The translations under genes were made by a program, and so were the position numbers. From assembly GCF_025024155.1 (NCBI RefSeq), contig NW_026251792.1:1-64000 (forward strand): 64,000 nt of DNA. Direction: 5' to 3'. This DNA comes from Gamsiella multidivaricata (lineage: Eukaryota; Mortierellomycota; Mortierellomycetes; Mortierellales; Mortierellaceae). The notes under the pieces are model-generated. The model had not been told where the DNA came from. It did no database searches and was given only the letters and a program-made list of their open reading frames with translations. Shown in pieces: positions 25,801 to 54,600 of the stretch (position 1 is its first letter; the number at the start of each line of letters is the position of its first letter).

Positions 25801-28130
25801 TTGTCAAAAGCACTTGGAAGTTCCGGTGTCGAATCTCTGTTTGCTGAATGTGCTTACGCTGCGAGGGAACACCTTTGTAGACAACCTTCGTGACCTGAGG
25901 AGCCCACTTTTCGAATTCCAACGTCCAATTCGTGAGCGTGCTGTAGTTATTACGAAATAATAAGCGCGTAGTCAGTCAGACGCGTCCATCGCAAAAACAT
26001 GAGGTCTAAATGTTAGCAGTGATCCACATGTAAAAGTACACTTACGAAAGTGGTACAAGGATGAGGAAGGGCCCGTTCTGCTGCTTAGCCTCAATTAAAA
26101 ATGTGACCAAGGAGATGGTTTGAATAGTTTTACCCAATCCCATCTCGTCTGCCAGAATTCCGTTCAAACGATTGTTGTAGAGAGACGCCATCCACTGCAG
26201 ACCCTTCATCTGGTACTCCTTCAGCGTTCCTCCGGTCAAGATAGCCGGCTGCTTCGTGATCTTTTCTTGAATCTTGTGTGCAATATTGTAATAGTCGTTG
26301 CGCCTGTTGTCCTCCTATTTTTCCAGTTGGCCACAAAGATACCTTTGTTAGCTTCCAAAGCAGATATCACATATCTCCACAAAGTTCAGATCATTGTGTT
26401 GAATCACTTACTCCGTCGCCATAATCGAAATCGCTCTCATCATCCATAAGCTCAATACCGCCGCGCGTAATAATGTCCGAGTGGACAGAGTCGTTTTGCT
26501 GGGCAGTAACGGCCTCTGCAAGCGACGCAAGATAGGAGTCGGTCTGCTGCAACAAGTGTGTGATACGCGTGTCCTTGGCCTGATCAATGAGCTTCATGTA
26601 CGCCTCTTCATCGTCATTCTTCAAAGCTTTCAGACGCTCCTTCGAGATACGTTCGATACGCTTGGCCTCTTCCTTTTCAACGTGGGCGTGGAACTGAAGA
26701 ACCAGGCGACCCAGCTTGTTTTGCTTCATCTGCTGTGTCCTGTGCCACTGGATCATATCGCGTCCGTGGTTGACAATGTTCTGCAAGTAGTCCATGTGCT
26801 TCTGCTTCTCACGTCCCTCGCGATCCTGTCTCTGCTGCCTTTCGAGCTTCTCAGTCATGCGAGCCTCGCGCAACGATTGTTTCTTCATCCTGCGATATGC
26901 GGCTCTGTCCGTAGACGTTGCAAGCATGGTCGCTTTGGACATTCCCTTGATGATTTCAGCTCGAAGCTATCGTTGATCGGTAGTATCAATGAGATGAACA
27001 GCAACAGTTAGCTTTCACGCCCACCATAGATGCATCGATACAACATGCACGTGCGTAGCACGATCGTTGACTGCACCTTCTTCTGTCTTTCCAAAAGTCT
27101 CAGGGCCTTCAGCTCAATAAGGGCTTTCAGCTTGGGTCCCGAAGGGGGAGCCTTGTTTTCTTGGTCCAAAAGGCCGCCAGAGGGATCCAGGGCCTCGCTG
27201 GCAATATTGCTGGGGAGGCTGTCGAGCTCCTCGATGCGGTACTTGACACGTGTCTTCAGTCGGTTGTCGCGCTCCTGGGCCAAAGCATATGGGTCAATGC
27301 CCACTGGCGATATACTGGGAATCAGGAGGCGCTGCTGCCGTGAAGCATGGACCGCGGCGGGCAGGGTCTTTTGAAGATATGAGAATGGCGATGTGTAGGC
27401 GTTGTAATCGGATGCTGTTGGCATCTGCTCGGATAAATGGTGGCGGGCCACATCCACGATTCTACCAGCAACTGATGCTGTGGGTTCCTTGGCGCTCAAA
27501 GCTTGTTCGACCGACTTTGGTGTGAAAATGGCTTCCTGAAGATGTGGTGGTACAGCCATGTTGGCCGAGATCAGCTTGAATGCGATTATCTGGTATCGAA
27601 GGTCTGTGAGCTGCTCTGTTGAAAAGGGCGATCCCTGGGTAGGAGGCAAGGCCGGCGCGCCAGGGGGCTGCTGCTGCTGTAGCTGATGGAGCTGCTGCTG
27701 TTGAGCTTGCTGAAGCTGATGAAATTGTTGTTGCTGCTGCATCTGGAGAAGTTGTTGTTGCTGCTGATAAGGTGCAAGGCCTTGAGCCGCTTGGGCGCGT
27801 TGCTGATTCTGAGCTTGTGCAGCTTGGTAGGCACGCAACAAATTCATCAGCTGGGCATATTGCTGGTTGGTTTGCTCCGTTGCTCCTGCAGCTTTCATAT
27901 TGCGAACAGCCTATGAAGGCAAGCAAGCCATCAGGTCCAAAAACAGTCAGTACGCAACTGATGCAGGGATCAGGATCAATCTGTTTGTTGTTAGGATGAC
28001 TTACGTTCAAGACACTGGTGATCTGCTCTTGAGATATGTTGGCCACCATCTCATGGCTAATGGCCTGTGGTTGCTGCTGCTGCTGAGGCTGCTGTTGTTG
28101 TTGCTGAGGTTGTAATTGTGCTGGATTCAT
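22827..28130 (-). CDS. SNF2: SWI/SNF or RSC catalytic ATPase (SNF2/STH1 type) with bromodomain
   Basis: Eight exons join in frame (complement of 22827-23339, 23451-24770, 24908-25199, 25296-25940, 26046-26314, 26412-26966, 27062-27910, 28005-28130) to about 1522 residues. Order: Gln-rich N-terminus; QLQ domain near 143-172 ([15 protein letters not shown]); HSA region near 330-420 ([15 protein letters not shown]); DEXD helicase half with Walker A DEMGLGKT and Walker B box DEGH; second helicase half with [15 protein letters not shown] and QDRAHRIGQ; SnAC-like region; AT-hook-like GRGRGKK and KRGRKP; bromodomain near 1240-1350 ([18 protein letters not shown]); acidic tail. It slides and evicts nucleosomes using ATP as part of a remodelling complex. 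SNF2 and STH1 are paralogues only in some fungi, so the symbol is generic. The 27062 donor (GTGCTA) is non-standard and was chosen by reading frame. The start is uncertain; an extra upstream exon is possible. Confidence 0.94.
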
Positions 28131-28575
28131 GTTGCGGATCGCTGTACGTCGGAGAAAGGGGAAGAAGGAGTCCGCAAATATAGCTCGATCACTCGAGTAC
28201 ACGTAGAATCAACCGCGCGTGTCTGGTTTCTAGTTAGGGAAGAGCAAGTGTTGTCTTCTATGGCTGGGCTGGAAAGTCGGCACTAATTGCGGCAGTTATT
28301 GTTGATGCAGTTGTTGTTGCTTGAAGGAAATCCCTCTCCCGTGGATGGAGCAGGATGCGGAAAAATGGATGGTTGTGCAAGTTGTGTCTGCAGTCGGGGT
28401 CGCAATGGTCTGAGTATATTATTTATCTGTAAACCAAATGGAGGACAGATGAGAGTGGAAAAAGAAAACACATCCACGCCCTTGTCGACAAGACATCCGC
28501 GCATCGGACTACGATGACGTCACCGAGCGCACGTGACCCTACACTATGAACATGCTGACAAGCATGCATATCTAG
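28131..28575. other. SNF2 upstream region
   Basis: Lies between the SNF2 start and the 3' end of the broken nuclease gene. A 73-codon minus-strand frame (28283-28504) has a Pro/Gln/Asn-rich end and might be a leader exon of SNF2. There is no supporting motif. Confidence 0.4.
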
Positions 28576-30623
28576 CTATTTTGCTACTTGGTGAAACTCC
28601 TGTGTTCCTTCCTTCCTTGCCTTCTTCATTGTGCGGTCGGATGAAGAACTTGATGCATCAGCCGTGGGATTGACGTCGGTGTTGGAGACCTCAACCGAGA
28701 CGATCGAAGCGGCGCGTCTCTTGCTGGTTAGGCCACCTGAATTGGTCGCTGCTGCTATCGACGGGCTGGCTGCTGCTGCTCCTCCGCCACCACTGCCGCC
28801 TGCTCCAACTCCAATGCTGTCAATGGCATCAGCTGATAGTCCGCCTGCTTCTCCTCCACTACCACCACTACCGCTATCAGCAGCGACATTCATCCATGGG
28901 TATGATCCGTCTTGACGCTGAGGTTGAAGGTACAGCGGCCGCTGCTGGTGGATCAGGTGGGCCTTGATAGCATTGTTCATGTTCGCGGACGCCATCACGT
29001 ACCGCTGTCGGAAGCACTTACGCGTCTTGCAATAAAGGGTGCGCCAGTTCGATGTCGCGCAGACAAAGCCATGGCAGACTGGGCATTTCTTAGACGAGTA
29101 GTGCTCATTGATCCCAAGCACTAGGTAGTCCAATGACCGTGCCTAAGTCGATAAAAAAGAAAATGAAGGCATTGTTTGGAGACATTGTTAGTATGTCGCA
29201 GTAAATGAACGACCCTGCTGAACAGTCGTCGCAACGATGTGCCCTACCAGATTGACGAAAAACGCCTCGAACGTGCTATTGAGTGCTGGAGGGCCCTGCA
29301 CAGCAGTAAACTTGGCCAGACCGATCGCGATCGCGACATGTTGATGCGGCAACCTCGGCCTTCCGACAGATCCTCCAATCATATTTAGCAAGCCGTTGGT
29401 AACCTTGTAGAACTCCTCCTTTCGACAAACTTCAGCGTCCCACCCATGCTTCCAGAAGTTGGTGTTATTGTAAAAGTTGTTTAAATCTTCTTCTGATGCT
29501 CGACGCGCTGCAACGTACTTGCGAAAGGAGGCGCCTTCTCCCTTGAGCAGTGGCAGGTCAGTCTCGATATCCTGGATGGTCCTGCCGGTGGATGCTCCAA
29601 TGGAATTCTCTTTTCGTTCCTCGAGCCAATTGGCAAAGCTGTCCGTTGGCCGCGACACGGCCTTGCGCTTGACCACCATATCAAAGTACTGAGTCGTCTG
29701 AGTCTGCTTGGTCAGCTTGCGCGCCTTCTGCCTCTTCCTCTGGTCCTTCCGATCACTGGGCTTCCGCTTGGCACGCCTTGTCTTCTTCTTCTTCTGGTCG
29801 CCCTCCTCGCCGAGGGGTCGCTTCAATATGGCAGGAGTCTGGCCAGGTGGGAGCGAGACGGTGGCACCAACGAGACAGGAGGTACCCAAATCGAGCGGCA
29901 ACACCCCAACCTGACTTGGATCTGCAGCCAACAAGCTCTCCACAGCTGCAGATGTGGAGAAGACATTGCGGGCCTCAGTCAGGTACCTGTTGGTGCCGCC
30001 AATGGTGGTGACGAAAGGATTGGGCAACTTGTTCTCGGGAACACGGCGGTACCGAACAGACTGCAGCTCCTTCAGTTTAAACGCCAGCACCTGTAGCAGA
30101 CGGCCGTTGGTCCGGATCGAGCCCCTGAGGATATAACCCCTGCCGTGCCACTCCTTGGGTCGAACGTCTCGGCCCACAAACATCCGAGGTGTTCTCGAAG
30201 CCCTCCCTTGCCGTTCTTGCCGTCCAAGTCCATAATTGCTGTCACCTTGCGGTAGCCTTTGTCGTGCTTGTCAGGCGGGAGACCTACATCCGTCAAGAAA
30301 GTGGTGACAAGGCGGCCAGGCGTTGTCTTGGTCAGCCAGTTTAGAGCGTCAGCCTGCGCGGGAACTATGGCTGGATCCTGAAAATAACGATCCTCGACCA
30401 TCATACGCCGGATCTTGTCCTTGAGGGTCGGCCAGTGCCAGAACAGCGGGAGCAAATGCCGCTCAGAGAAGCCAACATAGCGAGCCGCCAGGAGTGAGAG
30501 AGGCGCAATACGTCTCGATCCGCCACTGGCCTTATTGAGAAGTAGATAGTTCTCAATGGCAGGAAGCTCGGGGTCGATCTTTAGAAGCACCGCGTCAGGT
30601 TGGGCATCCGCTTGTGAGTTGAT
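28576..30623 (-). other. TnpB/Fanzor-like RuvC and zinc-ribbon module (C-terminal)
   Basis: Key blocks in order: GRGYILRGSIRTNGRLLQV (near 30150-30090), LPLDLGTSCLVGA, where the Asp of LDLG (codon 29890-29892) fits RuvC motif I, a Lys/Arg-rich insert, then IAIGLAKF and, across a GT-AG intron (29143-29247), ARSLDYLVLGINEHY followed by the zinc ribbon KKCPVCHGF and LYCKTRKCF, then RQRYVMASANMNNAI and the tail RPLYLQPQRQDGSYPWM. The zinc ribbon followed by a motif of the RDxxAAxN class is the hallmark of TnpB and Fanzor RNA-guided nucleases. Here the expected motif III Asp is Tyr (codon 28999-29001). The motif II Glu is not obvious. The C-terminus is low-complexity Gly/Ser/Ala. Confidence 0.65.
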
Positions 30624-32529
30624 CTATTGTAAAAAGAAAAGAAGACATTGGTTCAAAATAAGTATTTCATGAATGCTGCTCTCTTTGCATTTCGCCCGTG
30701 ATAAAGCTTGAAATGGCAGCGCCACATTACCTTCTTCTCAAGGGCGACCGAGCCGTTTCGATACATCATTTTCACTGAGCGATAAAACTGTTTGGTGGTC
30801 GACTCGAGCAACTCGTTGGTTGGGTAGGAGACGGAGCGGGGAGGAACAGGGGGCAATGTAATGCCCAGGGCTGTAGCACGTGCAAGTAGCTGGCCGACTT
30901 GCCGCTCGATAACCGTCTTGGACTTGATCTTGCAGGAGTAGATGTGTGCTAGCAGAATCTAGTAGAAGGCGATGAAGGGCTTATCCATTGCGGACGGCTC
31001 GGCATCTTCGTCGCCATCATCCTCAGTGTCGTTGTCGACACCATCCTCCGCGTCTTTTTCGCCTTCCTCACTATTACTCTCAGTGGAAGTGCTGGCGATA
31101 CTGCTGCTGGTCGCCTGAGAGTCCTTGTTAGGTTGGAGCGCCACACGGATCTTGGATTCGACGGCGGGACATAAAAATGATAGGATGGTTCGGTCCTCCC
31201 CAGTCAGACCAACGGTCTCGATGAACGCGCCCAGAAACTCCTGTGCGTGTCTCTTCGTCACACGAACTTGCTCAACAACCTCAAGGATACAAGCAGCGAC
31301 CCGTTGCTGCTGATGTTGCTGTTGCTGCTCAGACGAGGGGAGCTGACTGTTGTTGGTGGTACAGTGCGGGACGTCTAGTCGCGACATGTAACTTTTATCT
31401 AGAAACACCTATTCATTTTCAAGTACAACCACTGAATCGAAGTTTGGATCATTAAAGTGCGTATAACCCTTCCCTCTGCAAACCAATGTTCGCCGTTTAT
31501 CAATATAACCTCTAGTTCCAAGGTTTTTGAGTTTCAACGTTTTCTACGTACAGTGGCGACTAGATATCCCGCGCTATAGCTGCTGCCGCTGCCCGCTTGC
31601 TGTTAGCTTTGACTGTGCCGACGGGAAGGGAGACAAGGGGGTGCTCCCACACCATGGCATTGATCAGCTGCATCTTGTTCATCTTGTCGATCTTGAATGA
31701 TGGCTTCTTGGCTAGCTCCTTTTCCTTCTGGAGTCGCCGAGCCTCTCGTTGTCGCTTCTTCTTTGCCTCCTTCCCCTTGGACTCGGCTACTGACTCCCGG
31801 TATCGTGCCTCCTGCTTCGCCGTGTACGGCTTCCACTGGTATTGCTTGCAGATGGATGGTTGCTCGTGCTGCTGCGGTTCTGGCCGTGCCTTGTACGAGT
31901 ACCGTGGCCGATGCACCTGTCTTGAGACTCCAGGCTGGTGAGCTAGCCGGTCGATCACACGGTACCTCCTAGATTCCTTGTGCTTGCCCTGCCGATCGGG
32001 TTTGGCGTTGCTAGAGCATATCAAAGAGTGCGATAAAAGGTAAACAAGGCGTCATACCGTTTGCAAGTGATGGGAAAGACATATCAGAGGTCATGTGAGA
32101 CAATCACATAGCACCTAATGTATTACCTCTTGATGCTCAAGTTCTCTTGGCGCTTCTGTTCCTTGACTCTGGCATGCCGGTCCTTGACCACCTTGTACTG
32201 CTGACAAAGCAGCTCGTAGGAAAGGGAAGATGCAGGGGAGACCGTCAAAGGCGTCGCTGACTGTGAGGACGGCGACAAAACAGAGGATACGTCCGCTGAA
32301 ACAGCAATCTCCTGGGTCATTGTAATAAACACGAGAATAGAGTCGATGCCTTCCTGACTGCCGCAAATCACGCGTGGGCTCTCGAGATACTCCTCTGCCA
32401 GGGACGGCACGTCTAATAGAGAAAGGGTTCAAAAAAAGAGTCACGATGAGTCTGGCCATGTCCACAAGGAATAGAGGCGATATGGGCATGCAGGCAAGTT
32501 ATTCGTTCCTACCTGCATCGGATAGATCC

Positions 32530-33296
32530 TTAATAATGCTGTAGTTGGTGGCAAGGCCCATCGATGGGATAGTCATTACGCGAGACGCATGCTAGGGCAG
32601 TGAGTTTGGTGGTCGAGAGTCCTATCTGGGCCAGCACCGCCGCTCTCTTATATTCGAGGACCTTGACCTCGTCCCACTTGCCCACAGGACACCAGATTGT
32701 CGAGACCGAATCGTAAGCGAAGGAGTCCGAGTCTTGAGACAGAACAATGTCTTCGGGTTGACAGTCAGCAGCGATGGCGATGTCGGCTTCGGTCCAGCAC
32801 AGATGCGCGTCAAGCTCTCGACCAAGCAAGAACTGAATGAAGTCCTCCCGATCATGAAGGGACCACTTGAATCCTCCGCGGAGGCTGTTTTCGACATTCT
32901 TGAACATTTGCTTGGTAAGCGGCTTGCCTTGACTGACACGGTTGCTGAGCGTCTCGATTGCGATCTTGGCGTTCTTGAGGCCCTTGACTTGCTTCTCGTT
33001 CCGCTTGCGGTGAGTCTCTTTCTTCTCGAAAGCAGGGACGCCGTCGACATAGAACGCTATGCGCATGTGCAAGGGGTTGCCATACTTTTTGAGATGCTCA
33101 AGCAGGATAGCATGCGCCAATTGTTTGTCGTCTGCGTGTTTGGTGTAGATCCCGCGAATTTTATGGAAGAAGGACAGAACATCGACGCGAATAGTGGGTA
33201 TAGTGGGGATGGGGTCGTCAGGCAGGTGGTAGTGCATGGGGTGGGATTGTAGCCCCTCTTCTTTCTCAGCCACGGGTAGATTCCTTCCAAGCCCAT
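32530..33296 (-). other. XPG/FEN1-like nuclease module (N-terminal)
   Basis: The chain opens MGLEGIYPWLRKKRGYNP at 33296, typical of the FEN1/XPG N-terminus. A single-base loss in the C-run near 33250 then moves the frame. The downstream frame carries VDVLSFFHKIRGIYT, AFYVDGVPAFEKKETHRKR (XPG-N type), then TEADIAIAADCQPEDIVLSQ and DSDSFAY, the acidic XPG-I motif that binds catalytic metal, followed by ACVSRNDY, equivalent to the conserved SGNDY helix-hairpin position. After NDY the frame shifts again; the correct continuation, IPSMGLATNYSIIK, is in another frame. Flap endonucleases cut branched DNA; here the substrate is unknown. Confidence 0.75.
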
Positions 33297-33619
33297 GATC
33301 GATAACCAACTAGGAAAGTATCTATAATTAAAAGGTCCCCGCTGGCAGAGAAAATTGGTGGCAAGGAATGACAGGCAGTTATTTATCTTGTGCGGTCAAT
33401 GATTATCTGAAGTCGGTTATTACCCACTCTCGTGCAAAGAGTGGTGGAACTAGTTTGTTTCTCACCGCATGGTCGAAAGAAAAGCTGGGTAGCATATCTC
33501 ACTGAGATCCTTGCTCCTTTGTGCGGGCTTGGCGAGCTTTTCAACAATGCACGTTGACTGTTGTCAGTAGACAAGTTGCATGTTTGTAGCAGCTCTTTAA
33601 TGGGACAAGGAAACTTGCA
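33297..33619. other. Upstream flank of the broken nuclease gene
   Basis: About 320 bases with no coding signal that I can support. It may hold the old promoter of the minus-strand nuclease gene. I found no terminal inverted repeat. Confidence 0.4.
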
Positions 33620-34099
33620 CTACAAGATAAACGATGGTACTGTGCAGAACCTCTCTTCTTGTCCGGTCCTGACAGTTGAGTCCCATAGACCGCAGGAGAA
33701 AGCGTGTGGATCATAAGGTGTTGAATTAAAAGACGGTGGATGCCAAAGGATATGGTTCGCCGCGCCTCCACTGGGCATATGCCGTAGCCAATCCTTCGGT
33801 GCCTTACCGCAGCTGCCTGTGAATGGCATACAGCTGTAAAGCCCAATTGACCCGCATGTCATGTCAGCGCAAATGTTAGAGTGCTTCTGTGTGATCGCAG
33901 TGGAGTCGACTGAGCACTCACAGAGAGAAAATGGGCGCGATGAATCTCGGAGCCAAGTCTCATGAACCATCCTGCATTCGAATGCCTTTGTGCCGATCAG
34001 CAATGACCAATCTGCTTTGTGTCGAGCCTTGGTCGGAGTGCTCCTTTGTGTAGTGTTGCTTGCATGGGGTTCTTGGTCCATGATGAGATTTATATCCAC
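33620..34099 (-). CDS. Hypothetical Cys-containing protein (uncertain)
   Basis: An open frame of 159 codons with balanced amino-acid composition and a Cys/Trp/Pro-rich stretch such as CGSIGLYSCMPFTGSCGKAP and DPHAFSCGLWDSTVRTG. I do not recognise it. It has no clear signal peptide or membrane segment. It lies head-to-head with the 34234 gene and upstream, on the same strand, of the broken nuclease gene, so it may belong to that element or be chance. Conservation would be needed to call it a gene. Confidence 0.3.
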   Translation of the reverse strand: MDINLIMDQEPHASNTTQRSTPTKARHKADWSLLIGTKAFECRMVHETWLRDSSRPFSLCECSVDSTAITQKHSNICADMTCGSIGLYSCMPFTGSCGKAPKDWLRHMPSGGAANHILWHPPSFNSTPYDPHAFSCGLWDSTVRTGQEERFCTVPSFIL

Positions 34100-34233
34100 A
34101 CGCTGTCTCCTTTATCTTTTCCACCTCTCCTTCTTTCTTTTCCTTTGCCACAACTTTCTACTTGCACAAACACACGCACACCCCTGTCCCACTGTTATTA
34201 GATCTTCCTGTCCATCCATTACGAACGGCGCCA

Positions 34234-37200
34234 ATGTCTTTTACAACCGCTCAGGCGCACGAGCACGCCGTCTGGCTGAGCCAGCAGTACTCGCCTTGGT
34301 GTTTGCTACACATGCTGCTCAAAAACCACAGCGAACTCTTCTCGACCGCACTCCTCGAGGAACTCCTCCCGCCCCACACACCCTATCTGCCGATATCGTT
34401 TACTTCGCCTGCATCACCCTCTACTTGCTCTTCTCCTTCGTCGTTATCTTCTACTTCATTTTCTCCCTCGGCCTCTTCTTCCATTGCTTCACGGTCACAC
34501 TCAAGTACATTTGCACAGTCCACACAGTTCGCCCAACAGCAAGACCAAGAGAGCCCAAACCCGTCGTCAGCCCTGCGCCCAAAGGCTTACCTCTCGAGGT
34601 ACCTGGTGCAGCGATTACATTTTGGATACTATGGCAACCGCAGCACTCTTCCCGAATCTGCTGTCCGATACCTGACTGCAAGGGCTCGTCTAGAGTTTGG
34701 ATATTTTATTATCCGTGGGCGTGCGTTCTGGCATGTGCTGCCTGAAGATTTGGAAGAGCATCAGGATATAGATGCGCAGGACCCTGCAGGTTTTGAGGGG
34801 AATGGGCAGGAAGCAAAACCAGGGGCCAAGGCTGAAGGACTGCAGGACCAGCACAGTCGACGAGCAAGAGCGCAGCAACGCCCACATCGACAACGGCCAC
34901 AACAGGGTCAGCAGATGCAAGCGCAGGTCGACGATAACGATCCTGGTGGCAACAAGGACGAGGATCCAAACGCATTAGTATTTTCAGAGACATCGGCCAT
35001 CATCGGAAGAAGGCGGGGCGGAGCTGGAGCGGCTGGCAGGGCCAGGTTGAACAGTCAGGAAGAACAGCGCGAGAGGATCGTCAACGGAAATCAACGGTGT
35101 GAGGAACGGGAAGAGCAATTGCTTATGGCAGAGGCTGTCAGATACCTCGAGCGGCAGCACTCCAAGCTGATAGTTGATCTCCTGGTGGACTTAACGCAAG
35201 TCCCATTGAAGCCACCCTTCTCACCAAACCCAGACCTGAGCACGGCAGCGACATCAACTGAACTTTCCGAACGGCAGGTTGCGGCAATTTACTGGAGGCG
35301 AGTCGCTTTGACTAAACTGATCGATTCACAAGCAGAAATGGATACCGATATACTGGCTAGGATACCCTCTTCGCCGTTTCTAAATCGACGTGCAGATTGC
35401 TTTTGGATGGACCGCTTACAGCGCCCACCAACAGTGTCCATGACACTGAAGGATTTAAAGACGCAGTCCCAGCCGCATGGCGGTATGCGAATGGTTCAAG
35501 ACGACGCTCGTCTCTTTCAAATCGCATCGGGTGTCTTTGACGGACTTGCAATGCATCCGAAAAAGTGGGGGAGATCTGTACGCAGCATCATCGATGGTCC
35601 TCGCCTGTACTCGCCCAGTATTGTTGAAAGTCTCGTTGTCGAATACGGATATATGCCCTTGCCCGAAGACGATGCTGATCGCAAAATGCACTACAAGGGC
35701 GGTTGCAGGGCGATGACGGGAGAGCCAGATGTATTTCCGAGCGATGGGTCGCATGTTATCAATAGGCAGGGGCTGAAGGGCCAGGGTACCTCAATCTGGT
35801 ACTTCTATAACCTGCAGCACACTGAAGTCATGGTAGCATTTCTGATGCACCGGGCCCCAGTTGTATTGGATTGGTTGTTTGAGCAGGGGTTTGAACTTAA
35901 GCCTCGATCAGGCCTGAGATGTCCGGGTATCTCACGGGTATTGCTCTTGCAGTGCTGTATCCCTGGATGCCACGCAATGGTCCGACATGTTTATCAGCAA
36001 TCTACAGCCTCGCCGGTCATGTCATCCTCTGTGGCCGTTAGGACAATGAAGACGGAGCTATTAGGCTATGGCAACAAACCCAAGCGTATCGAGTTTCGGC
36101 AGGAAGACTTTGCTGAGGTTCTTAAGGGAGTTCCGCTGTCGCATTTGCGCGAGACGTTGGATATCATGAGGGATCTCGGGATGGAGAGCTACATAGTGCA
36201 GAATCGGCTGATGGAGCAGCTCCAGATCCCCGGGGGGCCGGCGCCAGTGGATGTGGAGAAGGTCAAACTGACCGTTCTGGTAAGGGTTCAGTTTTTGTAT
36301 CAATGAGTTCATTCGCGTGGTCAATTACTGCTATTGATAATTTCTCCTCTCTCTCTGCAGTTTGCCAATTGCGTCCAGAACTTTAAATCATCCGCTTCTG
36401 ATACTATGCTGGCAGCGACCGATATAGTCAACCTCGCACTTCAGCAGTCGTTTGAAATCCAAATGGACTCTTCAGGGGTGTTCGACCGGGAGTGGAAACA
36501 CACGTTCGAGGACACACTCTTGAGCCTCCGACGGGAGCGTTTGATCGTCCATTCTCACGTATCAGCTTGGATTCAGGAGTCGTTGGATCCCGCACAGGCA
36601 GCTTTTCGGATTTGTTTCGACCACGTTATATTGGACACACTGCTCGGGATCACGGAGTGGAACGTGGCGCAAGTCAAACGATTGCAAAAGTGGACCAGGC
36701 TTCAAGAAAGAGAGGCGCGTATGAAGAGCACCAGAACTGGTCGCCAGTGGGAACAGATCAAGAGGCGACTGGTGTTCGTGCAAGACAAGGATGTTGATGG
36801 CAAAGACGATCTGATGCGGAGTGTTGGAGAGCAAAGGAGGATCGGACTGAACATTGAATGGACAACGAATGACCAGATTACAATGCTACCCTCAGGTATT
36901 GTCGCCAGCCTGCCAAAGGGCAGTGAGATGGTCAGGATCAGCGATGACGGCTATCTGCTGCTGGATAATGGATGTTTGGCCCAGGGTCTATTGCTTTGCA
37001 ACCAACTCGTAGAGGGAGATGCCGTCCTGGACACGAATAGCAGGGTGGACGAGTTCTTGCGAAAGGGCGCCAATGTGGAAGAGAAGCACTGGATCTGGCT
37101 GGCTATGGGACTGGTGACCGTGTCACTGCAAGGTCCACGGGTGGCCGAGATTCCACTCTCTGAATCTTCAGCTGCTGGCAATCGCTCGATCCGCATCAAG

Positions 37201-51676: not shown

Positions 51677-54600
51677 GTGACCGAAGCACACCCTTGCCGA
51701 AGTCCTATTCGCGTGGTAGCTGTTTACCTGCAGAATAAGAGGTCGAACTCGAATGAGGACCATGGTCGGGAACGAGGTCAAAAGAAGCACAAGACAGATT
51801 CGAAGGTCTGTACGTACTCCGAGAAGTGTAAGACGCTGAGGCTCAAGCACCCGCTGGACAAGTGTTTCCATTGGCAGAACGACCAGAAGAAGAAAAAGGA
51901 GTCTGTAGACAAAGGCAACCAACCGGCAAGGGAGGGCTATAAGCCCATGAAGACGGTTGGAGCATTTGCCAAAGTTAATGAGGAAGCACAGCTAGGAGGA
52001 ATTCAGCTGAATAAAGAATCATTCTTTTCCTTATTTATCTTCTCCACAGGTCCATTTGATGCATGTATATGCATACAAAGGGCCAGCACTGGGTGATAAT
52101 CGCGTAGCAGTGCCAATAGGAATATTAGGCGCGCAATGCACAGCGCTACTAGACCCTGGAGCGACAACATCTCTGCTTAGTAGAGAATTAGCTGATGACT
52201 TTGGCATTCGATATGGCAAAGTAGCAAATGAATCAATTGCGATGATACAGAGAGGTTCGAGCACAGACAGCATCATTATCTGCGATAGAGTTCAGCTTGT
52301 GTGCAACAAGAGATCAGTCGAGTACCAACTCCATGTCATGGACATTGACCACTACGATTTCATCGTAGGAATGGATCTCTTTCCTAGATTTGGATTTGCT
52401 ATCACAGGTGTGGTTATGCCAGCACCGAGAGAGGAAGAATTTCTATGGGTGCCATCCGATGAGAAACCATCGGTAGTGCCAAAGGAGACCCCTCTGAAAG
52501 AACGCACGCCTGAATTCATCAAGCAAAAAGAAGATTTTATGAGAGCGCTCGAGCCCTCTCTCAAAGCTAATGAAACCATAGTCCCAAAATCATATTGCAC
52601 ACTTGACTCGATGAAAGTCGCGTTGAAGGTGAAGCCTGACTGCGTAATCCAGGAACGGTATCGACCGTTTCATGCACAGGTAGAGAAAGACGAAGTAGAT
52701 CGAACAGTACAAAAGCGGTGGGACACAGGAGTCATCATGCTCGCGCCAAAAGGCAACCCATACAACAATTCTCTGACAATGGCTGCTCGCAGGGACCCAG
52801 ATGGCAACATGATGAAGTACCGCGTGTGCCTTGATACTCGCACGTTGAACAGACAGCTAGAGGATACATACAACTTTCCTTTACCACTCATAACAGATAT
52901 TCAGCAAAAAGTGGCAGGACACAAGTACTTTTCAACGATCGATCTCTCTCAAGCATATCACCGAATGCCAGTGGACGAGGCAAGTCAACCATTGATAGCC
53001 TTTACCTACAATGGCAAGCAATACATGTTTGCAAGAGCACCATTTGGGCTAAAACCTCTGACGAGCATTTTCCAACGAGGAATGTCCCATTTGCTTGGTG
53101 ATCTGCATTATGGTAGCACATATGTTGATGACATTATTGTTTATTCGAATTCAATCGAAGAACATTTAGCTCACATCACTGTGGTCGTCAATCGATTGAC
53201 TGAAGCAAAGCTAATCATCAATCGAGAGAAAAGCAGGTTTCTAAGCACTGAGGTCCTTCTCCTAGGATTTATCGTCAATGAAGAAGGACGCAGTGTCAAT
53301 ACGGAAAAGATTGCTAACGTTCAGTCGTGGGCTCTTCCGACGAACAAAAAGATGATCCAGAGATATCTCGGACTCTTTAATTATTTTAGGGAATATATCC
53401 CACTCTACAGCACTATTACAGCACCGCTGAATCAGTTGCGCAACGCCAAGGGTACGTTTGAGTTGAATGACTTGCAAAGGCGCAGTTTTGATGCAATTAG
53501 AAATCTGATTGCCCAAGCACCTGTTTTGTCATTCCCAAACTTCAAAGAACCTTTTTATGTCGCCACTGACGCCTCTAATGTGGGCATCGGTGCAGTCTTG
53601 TACCAGTTACCAAACGGAAAAAGCGACGAATCTAAAGTGAACTACGTTTCCTTTCAGGCACGCGCACTGCACAAGCACGAAAAGAACTATCCCGCTTATA
53701 AAAAGGAGCTCTTGGGGATTATATTTGCTCTCATGAGATTCCATCACTATTTGTGGGGTAGAAGGTTCACGCTGTACACTGATCACAGACCCTTGACATA
53801 CATTCACGAACAGAAGGAGCTACCTCCGATCATTACGAATTGGAAGGAGATATTGCTCAATTATAATTTCGAATGTGTGTATCGTCCAGGGCTGTTGAAC
53901 GTTATTCCAGATGCATTATCCCGAGCATTTCCAGATGAATTATGGACGCCTGTTGAGAGTGTAAACTCTAGAGGCAAGGAGCATCGTGTTGCAGCAGTGA
54001 CTAGGTCAGGGCTACGAAAGGCCACTCTTTCGCCTACAGAAGAGGACGTCACTATTTCTTCGGTTGACTTAGCGGATCGTCTCTCGACAGTACCTATTGA
54101 TCATGAAGCATCGTATACTCATGTTATGCAGACGAACGACATGGACAGAACTACCGTTCTAGACGTCGAAGAACGCAAACAAATACTCAATCAAGTCCAT
54201 GAATTTGGTCATCTCGGGGGTAATGCAATGGTTAAGGCCATTTATGAGCGAGGCTAAATGTGGCCAAAGCTCAGGGAAGATTGTCTCAATTGGGTTAGCC
54301 AATGTGGACCCTGTCAGCACTTTAATATTGCACGCAAAGGATATCATCCACTGAAAGCCATTCATGCAGAATTACCTGGAGAGCATGTAGCGATTGATCT
54401 CGCCACAGTTGAAGTTAGCAGGCAAGGCAACGTGTTCGCCTTGGTAATGGTTGACATCTGTACTAGATTCGTCTTCCTGGAACCATTGCCGAATAAGGAA
54501 GCCAAGACAGTTGCAGGCGTCCTCTTCAAATTATTCTGTATCCAAAGCGACAATGGCACCGAATTCGTAAATGAAGTAGCCAAACTCATGTCGCGAAAGC

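Follow-up and report, generated by a model that had tools for sequence, protein, structure and literature searches.

TnpB keeps or restores copies of IS605/IS607 elements, and the service that nucleases of this family render to eukaryotic elements is an open question, even as Fanzors are studied as compact genome editors. As defined by Yoon et al. 2023 (PMC10711439), Fanzors carry an alternative glutamate six residues ahead of the zinc finger, and nearly all of them have DPG at RuvC-I; according to the same paper and PMC3627910, known Fanzors ride many transposon families. Here, we analyzed a stretch of 64,000 nucleotides from the fungus Gamsiella multidivaricata (Mortierellaceae; NCBI RefSeq assembly GCF_025024155.1, contig NW_026251792.1, positions 1 to 64,000 of the forward strand), referred to below as the window, in which a minus-strand gene joins the remains of an XPG/FEN1-like flap nuclease to those of a TnpB/Fanzor-like RuvC nuclease. 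The gene belongs to a dead copy of a repeated element, Fanzor-like (OMEGA-type) in kind and carrying a new domain partner, and our observations support a mobile, recently dispersed family of such elements in Mortierellaceae fungi.

That both halves form one protein is supported by predicted, intact relatives. In each protein search, only about 8000 candidates sharing most words were scored; the full-length query returned 36 proteins, all bearing the names of Mortierellaceae genera, and a full-profile query gave 32 matches, by name again Mortierellaceae. The XPG motif and the RuvC-III motif occur together in 13 of the 36 predicted single proteins, distributed over seven genera (Gryganskiella, Entomortierella, Haplosporangium, Linnemannia, Podila, Mortierella and Benniella), and several of the others are marked partial. 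Thus, the single chain proposed by an earlier, sequence-only reading of the window is encoded in relatives, as a predicted protein of about 1200-1360 residues in which a disordered linker connects an N-terminal FEN1/EXO1/XPG-type endonuclease to a Fanzor1-like RuvC/TNB nuclease at the C-terminus. The Pfam TNB domain (PF07282) scored above its cut-off in all 7 relatives scanned and XPG_I (PF00867) in two of them, P0010 and P0023, so that these two carry both domains above the cut-offs; in the other five, XPG_I or XPG_I_2 fell below. Across the 13 proteins, divergence of one half correlates with that of the other (r 0.86, Mantel p 2e-4), as it does in a reduced set of 10 (r 0.74, p 0.0016) and in 9 from which close relatives and the most distant protein were removed (r 0.63, p 0.011), as expected if the halves travel together. 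Chance motifs, considered as an alternative origin of the signal, would explain neither the collinearity with predicted single proteins nor the recurrence across the genome, and were rejected.

A query with the C-terminal half alone gave 130 matches, and the named ones among the 120 listed belong to Mortierellaceae, barring one partial Apophysomyces record. This partial relative, P0097, filed under Apophysomyces sp. BC1021, may reflect horizontal transfer, contamination or a wider range of the family; Apophysomyces belongs to Mucorales.

Structure prediction of a relative assigns the C-terminal part a RuvC/Fanzor-like fold, as the sequence-only reading had anticipated, with an identity of only 13-16% to Fanzor structures. 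Both the Fanzor/TnpB fold and an XPG/FEN1 fold with its catalytic residues are thus obtained by prediction; the XPG part of the relatives matches XPG in a PDB profile search (E 6e-6), and NCBIfam guided_TnpB matches their C-terminus below the cut-off. We aligned 17 rows (alignment A1), numbering the columns as in FEN1 and counting over the rows with a letter at a given site. The FEN1 metal ligands are kept at D34 in 12/13 rows, D86, E158 and D181 in 15/15 each, and D233 in 14/15; D179 is present in 12/15, the equivalents of Lys93 and Arg100 in 15/15 each, and the E160 position is Asp in 15/15. In the RuvC half, the RuvC-I Asp occurs in 17/17 and the RuvC-III Asp in 15/15, the canonical RuvC-II slot is Gly in 14/14, and an alternative Glu stands in 12/15, in the context NE[FY]YTSKKC, with six residues between it and the zinc finger. 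The relatives thus display the split RuvC D-E-D and the C4 zinc ribbon of the Fanzor/TnpB superfamily, and, because the active-site residues are kept, most intact relatives look catalytically competent in both halves. In three proteins, P0011-P0013, neither the Asp that opens the DSD motif of XPG nor the alternative Glu of RuvC survives, the remainder being largely kept.

The pieces in the window are collinear with a single annotated protein of 1320 residues, P0003, which they match over residues 5-1291 in five tblastn blocks, with residues 207-377 unmatched. The decayed copy has the following parts:

28492..33296, minus strand: decayed element copy, from the start codon of the gene to the 3' end of the element, collinear with P0003/P0023
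33258..33296, minus strand: N-terminus MGLEGIYPWLRKK, the start of XPG-N, then a frame break (open reading frame list, alignment A1)
32569..33240, minus strand: XPG/FEN1-like nuclease body with the RVD, YVDG, TEAD, DSD and NDY motifs; frame break after NDY
32517..32570, minus strand: last part of XPG exon 1, IPSMGLATNYSIIKDLSDA, read in a different frame
32413..32512, minus strand: intron 1, GT...AG, positioned as in relatives
32127..32412, minus strand: exon for the C-terminal end of the XPG domain and the first stretch of the linker (by eye, without a tblastn block)
31590..31913, minus strand: segment of the linker, running into the first part of the Fanzor-like half (P0003 in tblastn, E 1e-10)
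30728..31309, minus strand: N-terminal part of the Fanzor-like half, holding the in-frame stop at 30959-30961
30120..30578, minus strand: middle part of the Fanzor-like half (tblastn with P0003)
29191..30159, minus strand: RuvC core, with the RuvC-I Asp at 29890-29892
28576..29142, minus strand: RuvC-II alternative Glu (29104-29106), TNB zinc ribbon and RuvC-III site, up to the stop codon
28492..28575, minus strand: 3' non-coding tail, in an omega-RNA-like position, carrying TGACG at 31 nt from the element end

The motifs named in the sequence-only reading are all where it had seen them, on the minus strand: DGVPAFEKKETHRKR, EADIAIA and DSDSFAY in the open reading frame 33309-32533, LDLG in 30270-29191 and the zinc ribbon in 29142-28579. 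Its proposal that the segments are joined by phase-matched introns survives in part: intron 1 (32512-32413) is a normal GT...AG intron, whereas some of the other gaps are lesions of a broken copy. The frame is broken after MGLEGIYPWLRKK (about 33258-33240) and again after NDY (about 32570), a stop codon stands in frame at 30959-30961, and, compared with alignment A1, the fourth zinc Cys has become Arg (29020-29022) and the RuvC-III Asp Tyr (28999-29001); it is because of these changes that we call the copy dead. The Pfam matches of the window pieces fall short of their cut-offs, with XPG_I at E 7.9e-4 and 20.2 bits (cut-off 24.9) and Cas12f1-like_TNB at E 4.6e-4 and 20.7 bits (cut-off 26.3). 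The element extends past the stop codon of the gene to 28492, an end set by the matching family E tails of L017 and L027, all of which end GCGCGGATGTC.

The dead element lies in the gap before a long plus-strand open frame starting at about 34.1 kb. Just downstream of the element on the same strand is a gene with QLQ, HSA and SNF2-related domains, of the chromatin remodeller type (26045-28130, minus strand). Farther along the window, an RVT_1 match of 97 bits (52809-53276, plus strand), one of the 79 listed for the genome, lies in an open frame of 748 residues.

In the genome (37.5 Mb, 180 contigs), the RuvC half has at least 127 matches and the XPG half at least 86, which merge into 93 and 79 loci, respectively. 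An XPG locus lies upstream of 41 of the 93 RuvC-half loci, on the same strand and within 5 kb, in one-to-one pairs with a median gap of 2079 bp, and this recurring order and strand point to an arrangement beyond chance; the 8 other arrangements of the two halves are confined to three places with neighboring copies (C118, C13 and C47). Some of the 38 unpaired XPG loci, at 24-26% identity, may be host FEN1-like genes. A second XPG-like group without a nearby RuvC partner (26-37% identical to the query and mostly encoded in open frames of about 265-500 residues; C24, C1:1022440, C57:481299, C44, C46, C113, C108, C134:1592, C18 and C19:44249) is possibly another expanded XPG family.

Among 20 fetched element regions, in which L005/L023 and L007/L024 are the same places, blastn revealed subfamilies whose members sit at unrelated places and share about 95-99.8% identity along most of their length: A with 7 loci (some stretches at 77-94%), B with 3, C with 3 and D at 7 places. 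Pairs E (87% identity) and F (91%) are older. Of 20 copies tried, 9 showed both exon markers, and intron 1 was kept in all of these. In subfamily A, it reads GTAAAT...CTAAC...CAG; in L010, the acceptor AG is mutated. No RVT_1 match, among 79 listed in the genome, starts inside the 20 fetched loci, and no transposase family appeared among the Pfam matches of 7 full-length relatives, a scan of the fusion protein alone. Inverted repeats of at least 20 nt were not found in the window at 26000-36000, nor were long ones in the fetched loci (E up to 1e-20, at which short ones would escape). A subtelomeric family was considered, with several D copies at contig ends, and rejected: these contigs appear to end within the repeated element, and we take this as an assembly break rather than telomeres (telomere repeats were not searched).

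The 3' ends of the element are precise. In subfamily C, the end is CGGATTTC in 6/6 copies, and in subfamily A, TTTTC(A) in 7/9 matches, the tail of L039 being changed and L043 a fragment; poly-A or a simple repeat is not common at the 3' ends, although a run of A follows one copy (C126). By contrast, the 5' ends are variable, and two copies are strongly shortened, to 208 and about 315 bp; these short copies, L033 and L037, show no target duplication within 400 nt. Among the stretches L044-L047 examined for 5' junctions, an element end was found in L046 only, and, in subfamily B, L012 and L028 share more than 1 kb upstream of the gene, which may belong to the element or to a larger duplication. 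For 15 copies with both flanks, we searched for exact repeats of the right flank within the left 80 nt, and found them in L014 (10 bp), L013 (9 bp) and L009 (8 bp, with the left flank of L046). The pentamer CGTCA occurs within 60 nt to the left of 8/13 copies against a background of 5.4% (P 7e-8, or about 7e-5 allowing for all 5-mers) and is the commonest 5-mer there; with four further left flanks, where it is present in L025 and absent from L021, L017 and L027, the total is 9/17. The flank repeat starts 3 nt past CGTCA in L013, L014, L009 and L022, a spacing that, for the subfamily A copies L009 and L022, requires the A behind TTTTC to be target sequence and is otherwise 4 nt. At the window copy, CGTCA is absent from the gene start to about 2.2 kb upstream, and inspection by eye gave no convincing target duplication.

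The tail occupies the position where, by analogy with TnpB or Fanzor elements, an omega RNA would lie. In 9/12 tails from six strongly divergent subfamilies, TGACG is placed 31-34 nt from the element end; the other 3/12 have TGGCG or TGACA instead. Folding of the last 100 nt mostly gives a hairpin and, behind it, a longer stem-loop, D being different; in B, C, E and F, this stem-loop extends to the element end, and in A it falls 8-16 nt short. Against shuffled sequences, the fold has z scores of -0.9 (A), -2.9 (B), -2.5 (C), -2.2 (D), -3.9 (E) and -6.2 (F, whose end was set from one copy and partly from its fold), and no Rfam family reached the gathering score in six sources. TGACG and the left-flank CGTCA are reverse complements of each other, which would allow direct pairing between tail and target; in the subfamily A loci L018, L046 and L026, the match extends to TACGTCATC / GATGACGTA.

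How might such an element move? We propose that the tail of the transcript would serve as an omega RNA, with the sequence just right of the element as its guide, and that the RuvC half would cut the empty site at the target-adjacent motif CGTCAnnn. The FEN1 half might then trim 5' flaps or branched ends, and the break would be repaired by copying the element from the filled site, faithfully on the 3' side and often incompletely on the 5' side. Copying repair of this kind fits the precise 3' end, the ragged 5' end and the kept intron. We consider the dead copy of a mobile FEN1-Fanzor-like element family, together with this mechanism, the best explanation, with a confidence only a little above even. 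The bolder claim, which we consider doubtful, is that of a class of eukaryotic elements moving by one polypeptide, without transposase or reverse transcriptase, where RuvC would open the target beside CGTCA, FEN1 would shape the end and copying would proceed from the 3' end.

A number of observations weigh against this explanation. The proposed mechanism alone does not account for the choice of new, unrelated sites: the right flanks of different copies have no visible common sequence, so that one guide cannot explain insertion at new sites. Duplications of at least 8 bp other than poly-A were found in only 3/15 copies; among the remaining twelve, L020 has 8 A's, L022 and L010 have 5 bp, and the other nine 4 bp or none. 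Furthermore, an A follows TTTTC in 7/7 family A copies, and counting this A as part of the element would shorten the L009 duplication to 7 bp, starting 4 nt past CGTCA, a motif missing from 8/17 left flanks. Some tail folds are no better than shuffles (A, -0.9; window copy, -0.8), and the fused transcript and the omega RNA are both putative. As for the active sites, in P0011, P0012 and P0013, near-identical Mortierella proteins that make up 3/15 rows, the alternative E is replaced by K and the first D of DSD by G. Finally, RuvC-I reads LDAG, LDGG or LDLG in the A1 rows rather than DPG, and a loose motif survey gave DAG 43, DLG 33, DGG 17, DPG 4 and others 20 (117 matches, 164 proteins); it is because of this departure from DPG that we name the protein Fanzor-like and not Fanzor.

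The main competitors invoke movement in trans, by a transposase or a reverse transcriptase, which, taken together, we rate at somewhat less than an even chance. The element could be moved by a DNA transposase encoded elsewhere, the FEN1-Fanzor protein being an accessory that keeps or restores copies; the company of Fanzors in general and the existence of target duplications are in line with this scenario, as are the kept introns, which make movement at the DNA level likely. Cut-and-paste transposition, however, would not be expected to leave variable 5' ends and two strongly truncated copies, and the lack of inverted repeats, within the limits given above, also argues against it, so that we find a transposase acting in trans rather unlikely. 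Truncation at 5' ends combined with precise 3' ends is, conversely, what target-primed reverse transcription of the long interspersed nuclear element (LINE) type would produce, with the reverse transcriptase supplied in trans and the protein only nicking the target and trimming flaps. The same is suggested by additional nucleotides where the 5' end meets the flank, by target duplications that differ in length and by a genome with 79 RVT_1 matches or more. Nevertheless, intron 1 persists in 9/9 measurable copies, 0/79 RVT_1 matches start within the 20 fetched loci, the two short copies are without a matching target duplication, and, the run of A after C126 notwithstanding, the 3' ends share no poly-A or simple repeat. 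A tail shared with LINEs was sought and rejected: the tails show no convincing similarity to 12 reverse transcriptase loci or to the reverse transcriptase region of the window (best E 0.014). LINE-like movement thus appears unlikely.

Two further explanations would do away with the fusion or with the mobility. Neighboring XPG and Fanzor genes could have been merged by gene predictors, given that every single-chain protein is a prediction and that XPG-only and TNB-only proteins occur with successive numbers on a contig of equal length, e.g., L. gamsii BGZ96_004452/004453 (P0156, P0112). This is very unlikely in view of the 13 predicted single proteins across seven genera, the correlated divergence of the halves and the standard intron 1 splice signals in most copies read (the L010 acceptor being mutated). 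Alternatively, the conservation of catalytic residues in many relatives would suit a host gene family for genome defense, not a mobile element, yet such a family would hardly be represented by many dead or truncated copies, or by subfamilies whose members, scattered over unrelated places, are about 95-99.8% identical and have exact 3' ends and, in some cases, target duplications; we give it scarcely any credence. The sequence-only reading had envisaged an unusual mobile or genome-defense system: with repeated, recently dispersed copies, the mobile part is supported, and none of our observations speaks for a role in defense.

In the literature on Fanzor, TnpB, XPG and Mortierella, the fusion is not described in the titles and abstract openings listed, a scope that leaves supplements and most subscription papers aside, and the term XPG is absent from the main texts of those Fanzor papers that were searched by term. 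One passage in PMC11071296 speaks of "Fanzor flap endonuclease homologs" in animal viruses and describes no fusion. Fungi of one family have retained the fusion through deep divergence, which suggests that it matters to these elements how branched DNA is processed once the RNA-guided cut has been made; if both halves work in one chain, the protein would also offer editing a natural scaffold with two nucleases. A concrete handle for tests is given by the copies that moved recently, with their exact 3' ends and, in some cases, duplications, together with the candidate target motif. Were the protein alone to move the element, the latter would be more than a known type with a new partner.

Compared with Fanzor1 (SpuFz1, PpFz1 and GtFz1), the protein of the element adds an N-terminal FEN1 domain and a long linker, and has LDAG, LDGG or LDLG at RuvC-I where Fanzor1 has DPG; its identity to Fanzor structures is only 13-16%. 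Like TnpB of IS200/IS605 and IS607 (OMEGA), it combines RuvC with TNB, has a 3' tail that ends with the element and matches guided_TnpB, if below the cut-off; unlike TnpB, it belongs to a eukaryotic, intron-containing element in which no TnpA was found, is about 1200-1360 residues long and is fused to a flap nuclease. From the FEN1/EXO1/XPG (Rad2) 5' nucleases, its N-terminal half differs in being element-borne, in being fused to a Fanzor-like nuclease and in having Asp at the E160 equivalent. Like the Fanzor-bearing DNA transposons (Tc/mariner, MuDR-like and others) of Bao and Jurka 2013 (PMC3627910), it is a mobile element of a fungus that has a Fanzor-like protein; in contrast to those, the element described here combines precise 3' with variable 5' ends, with neither long inverted terminal repeats nor a transposase found in it.

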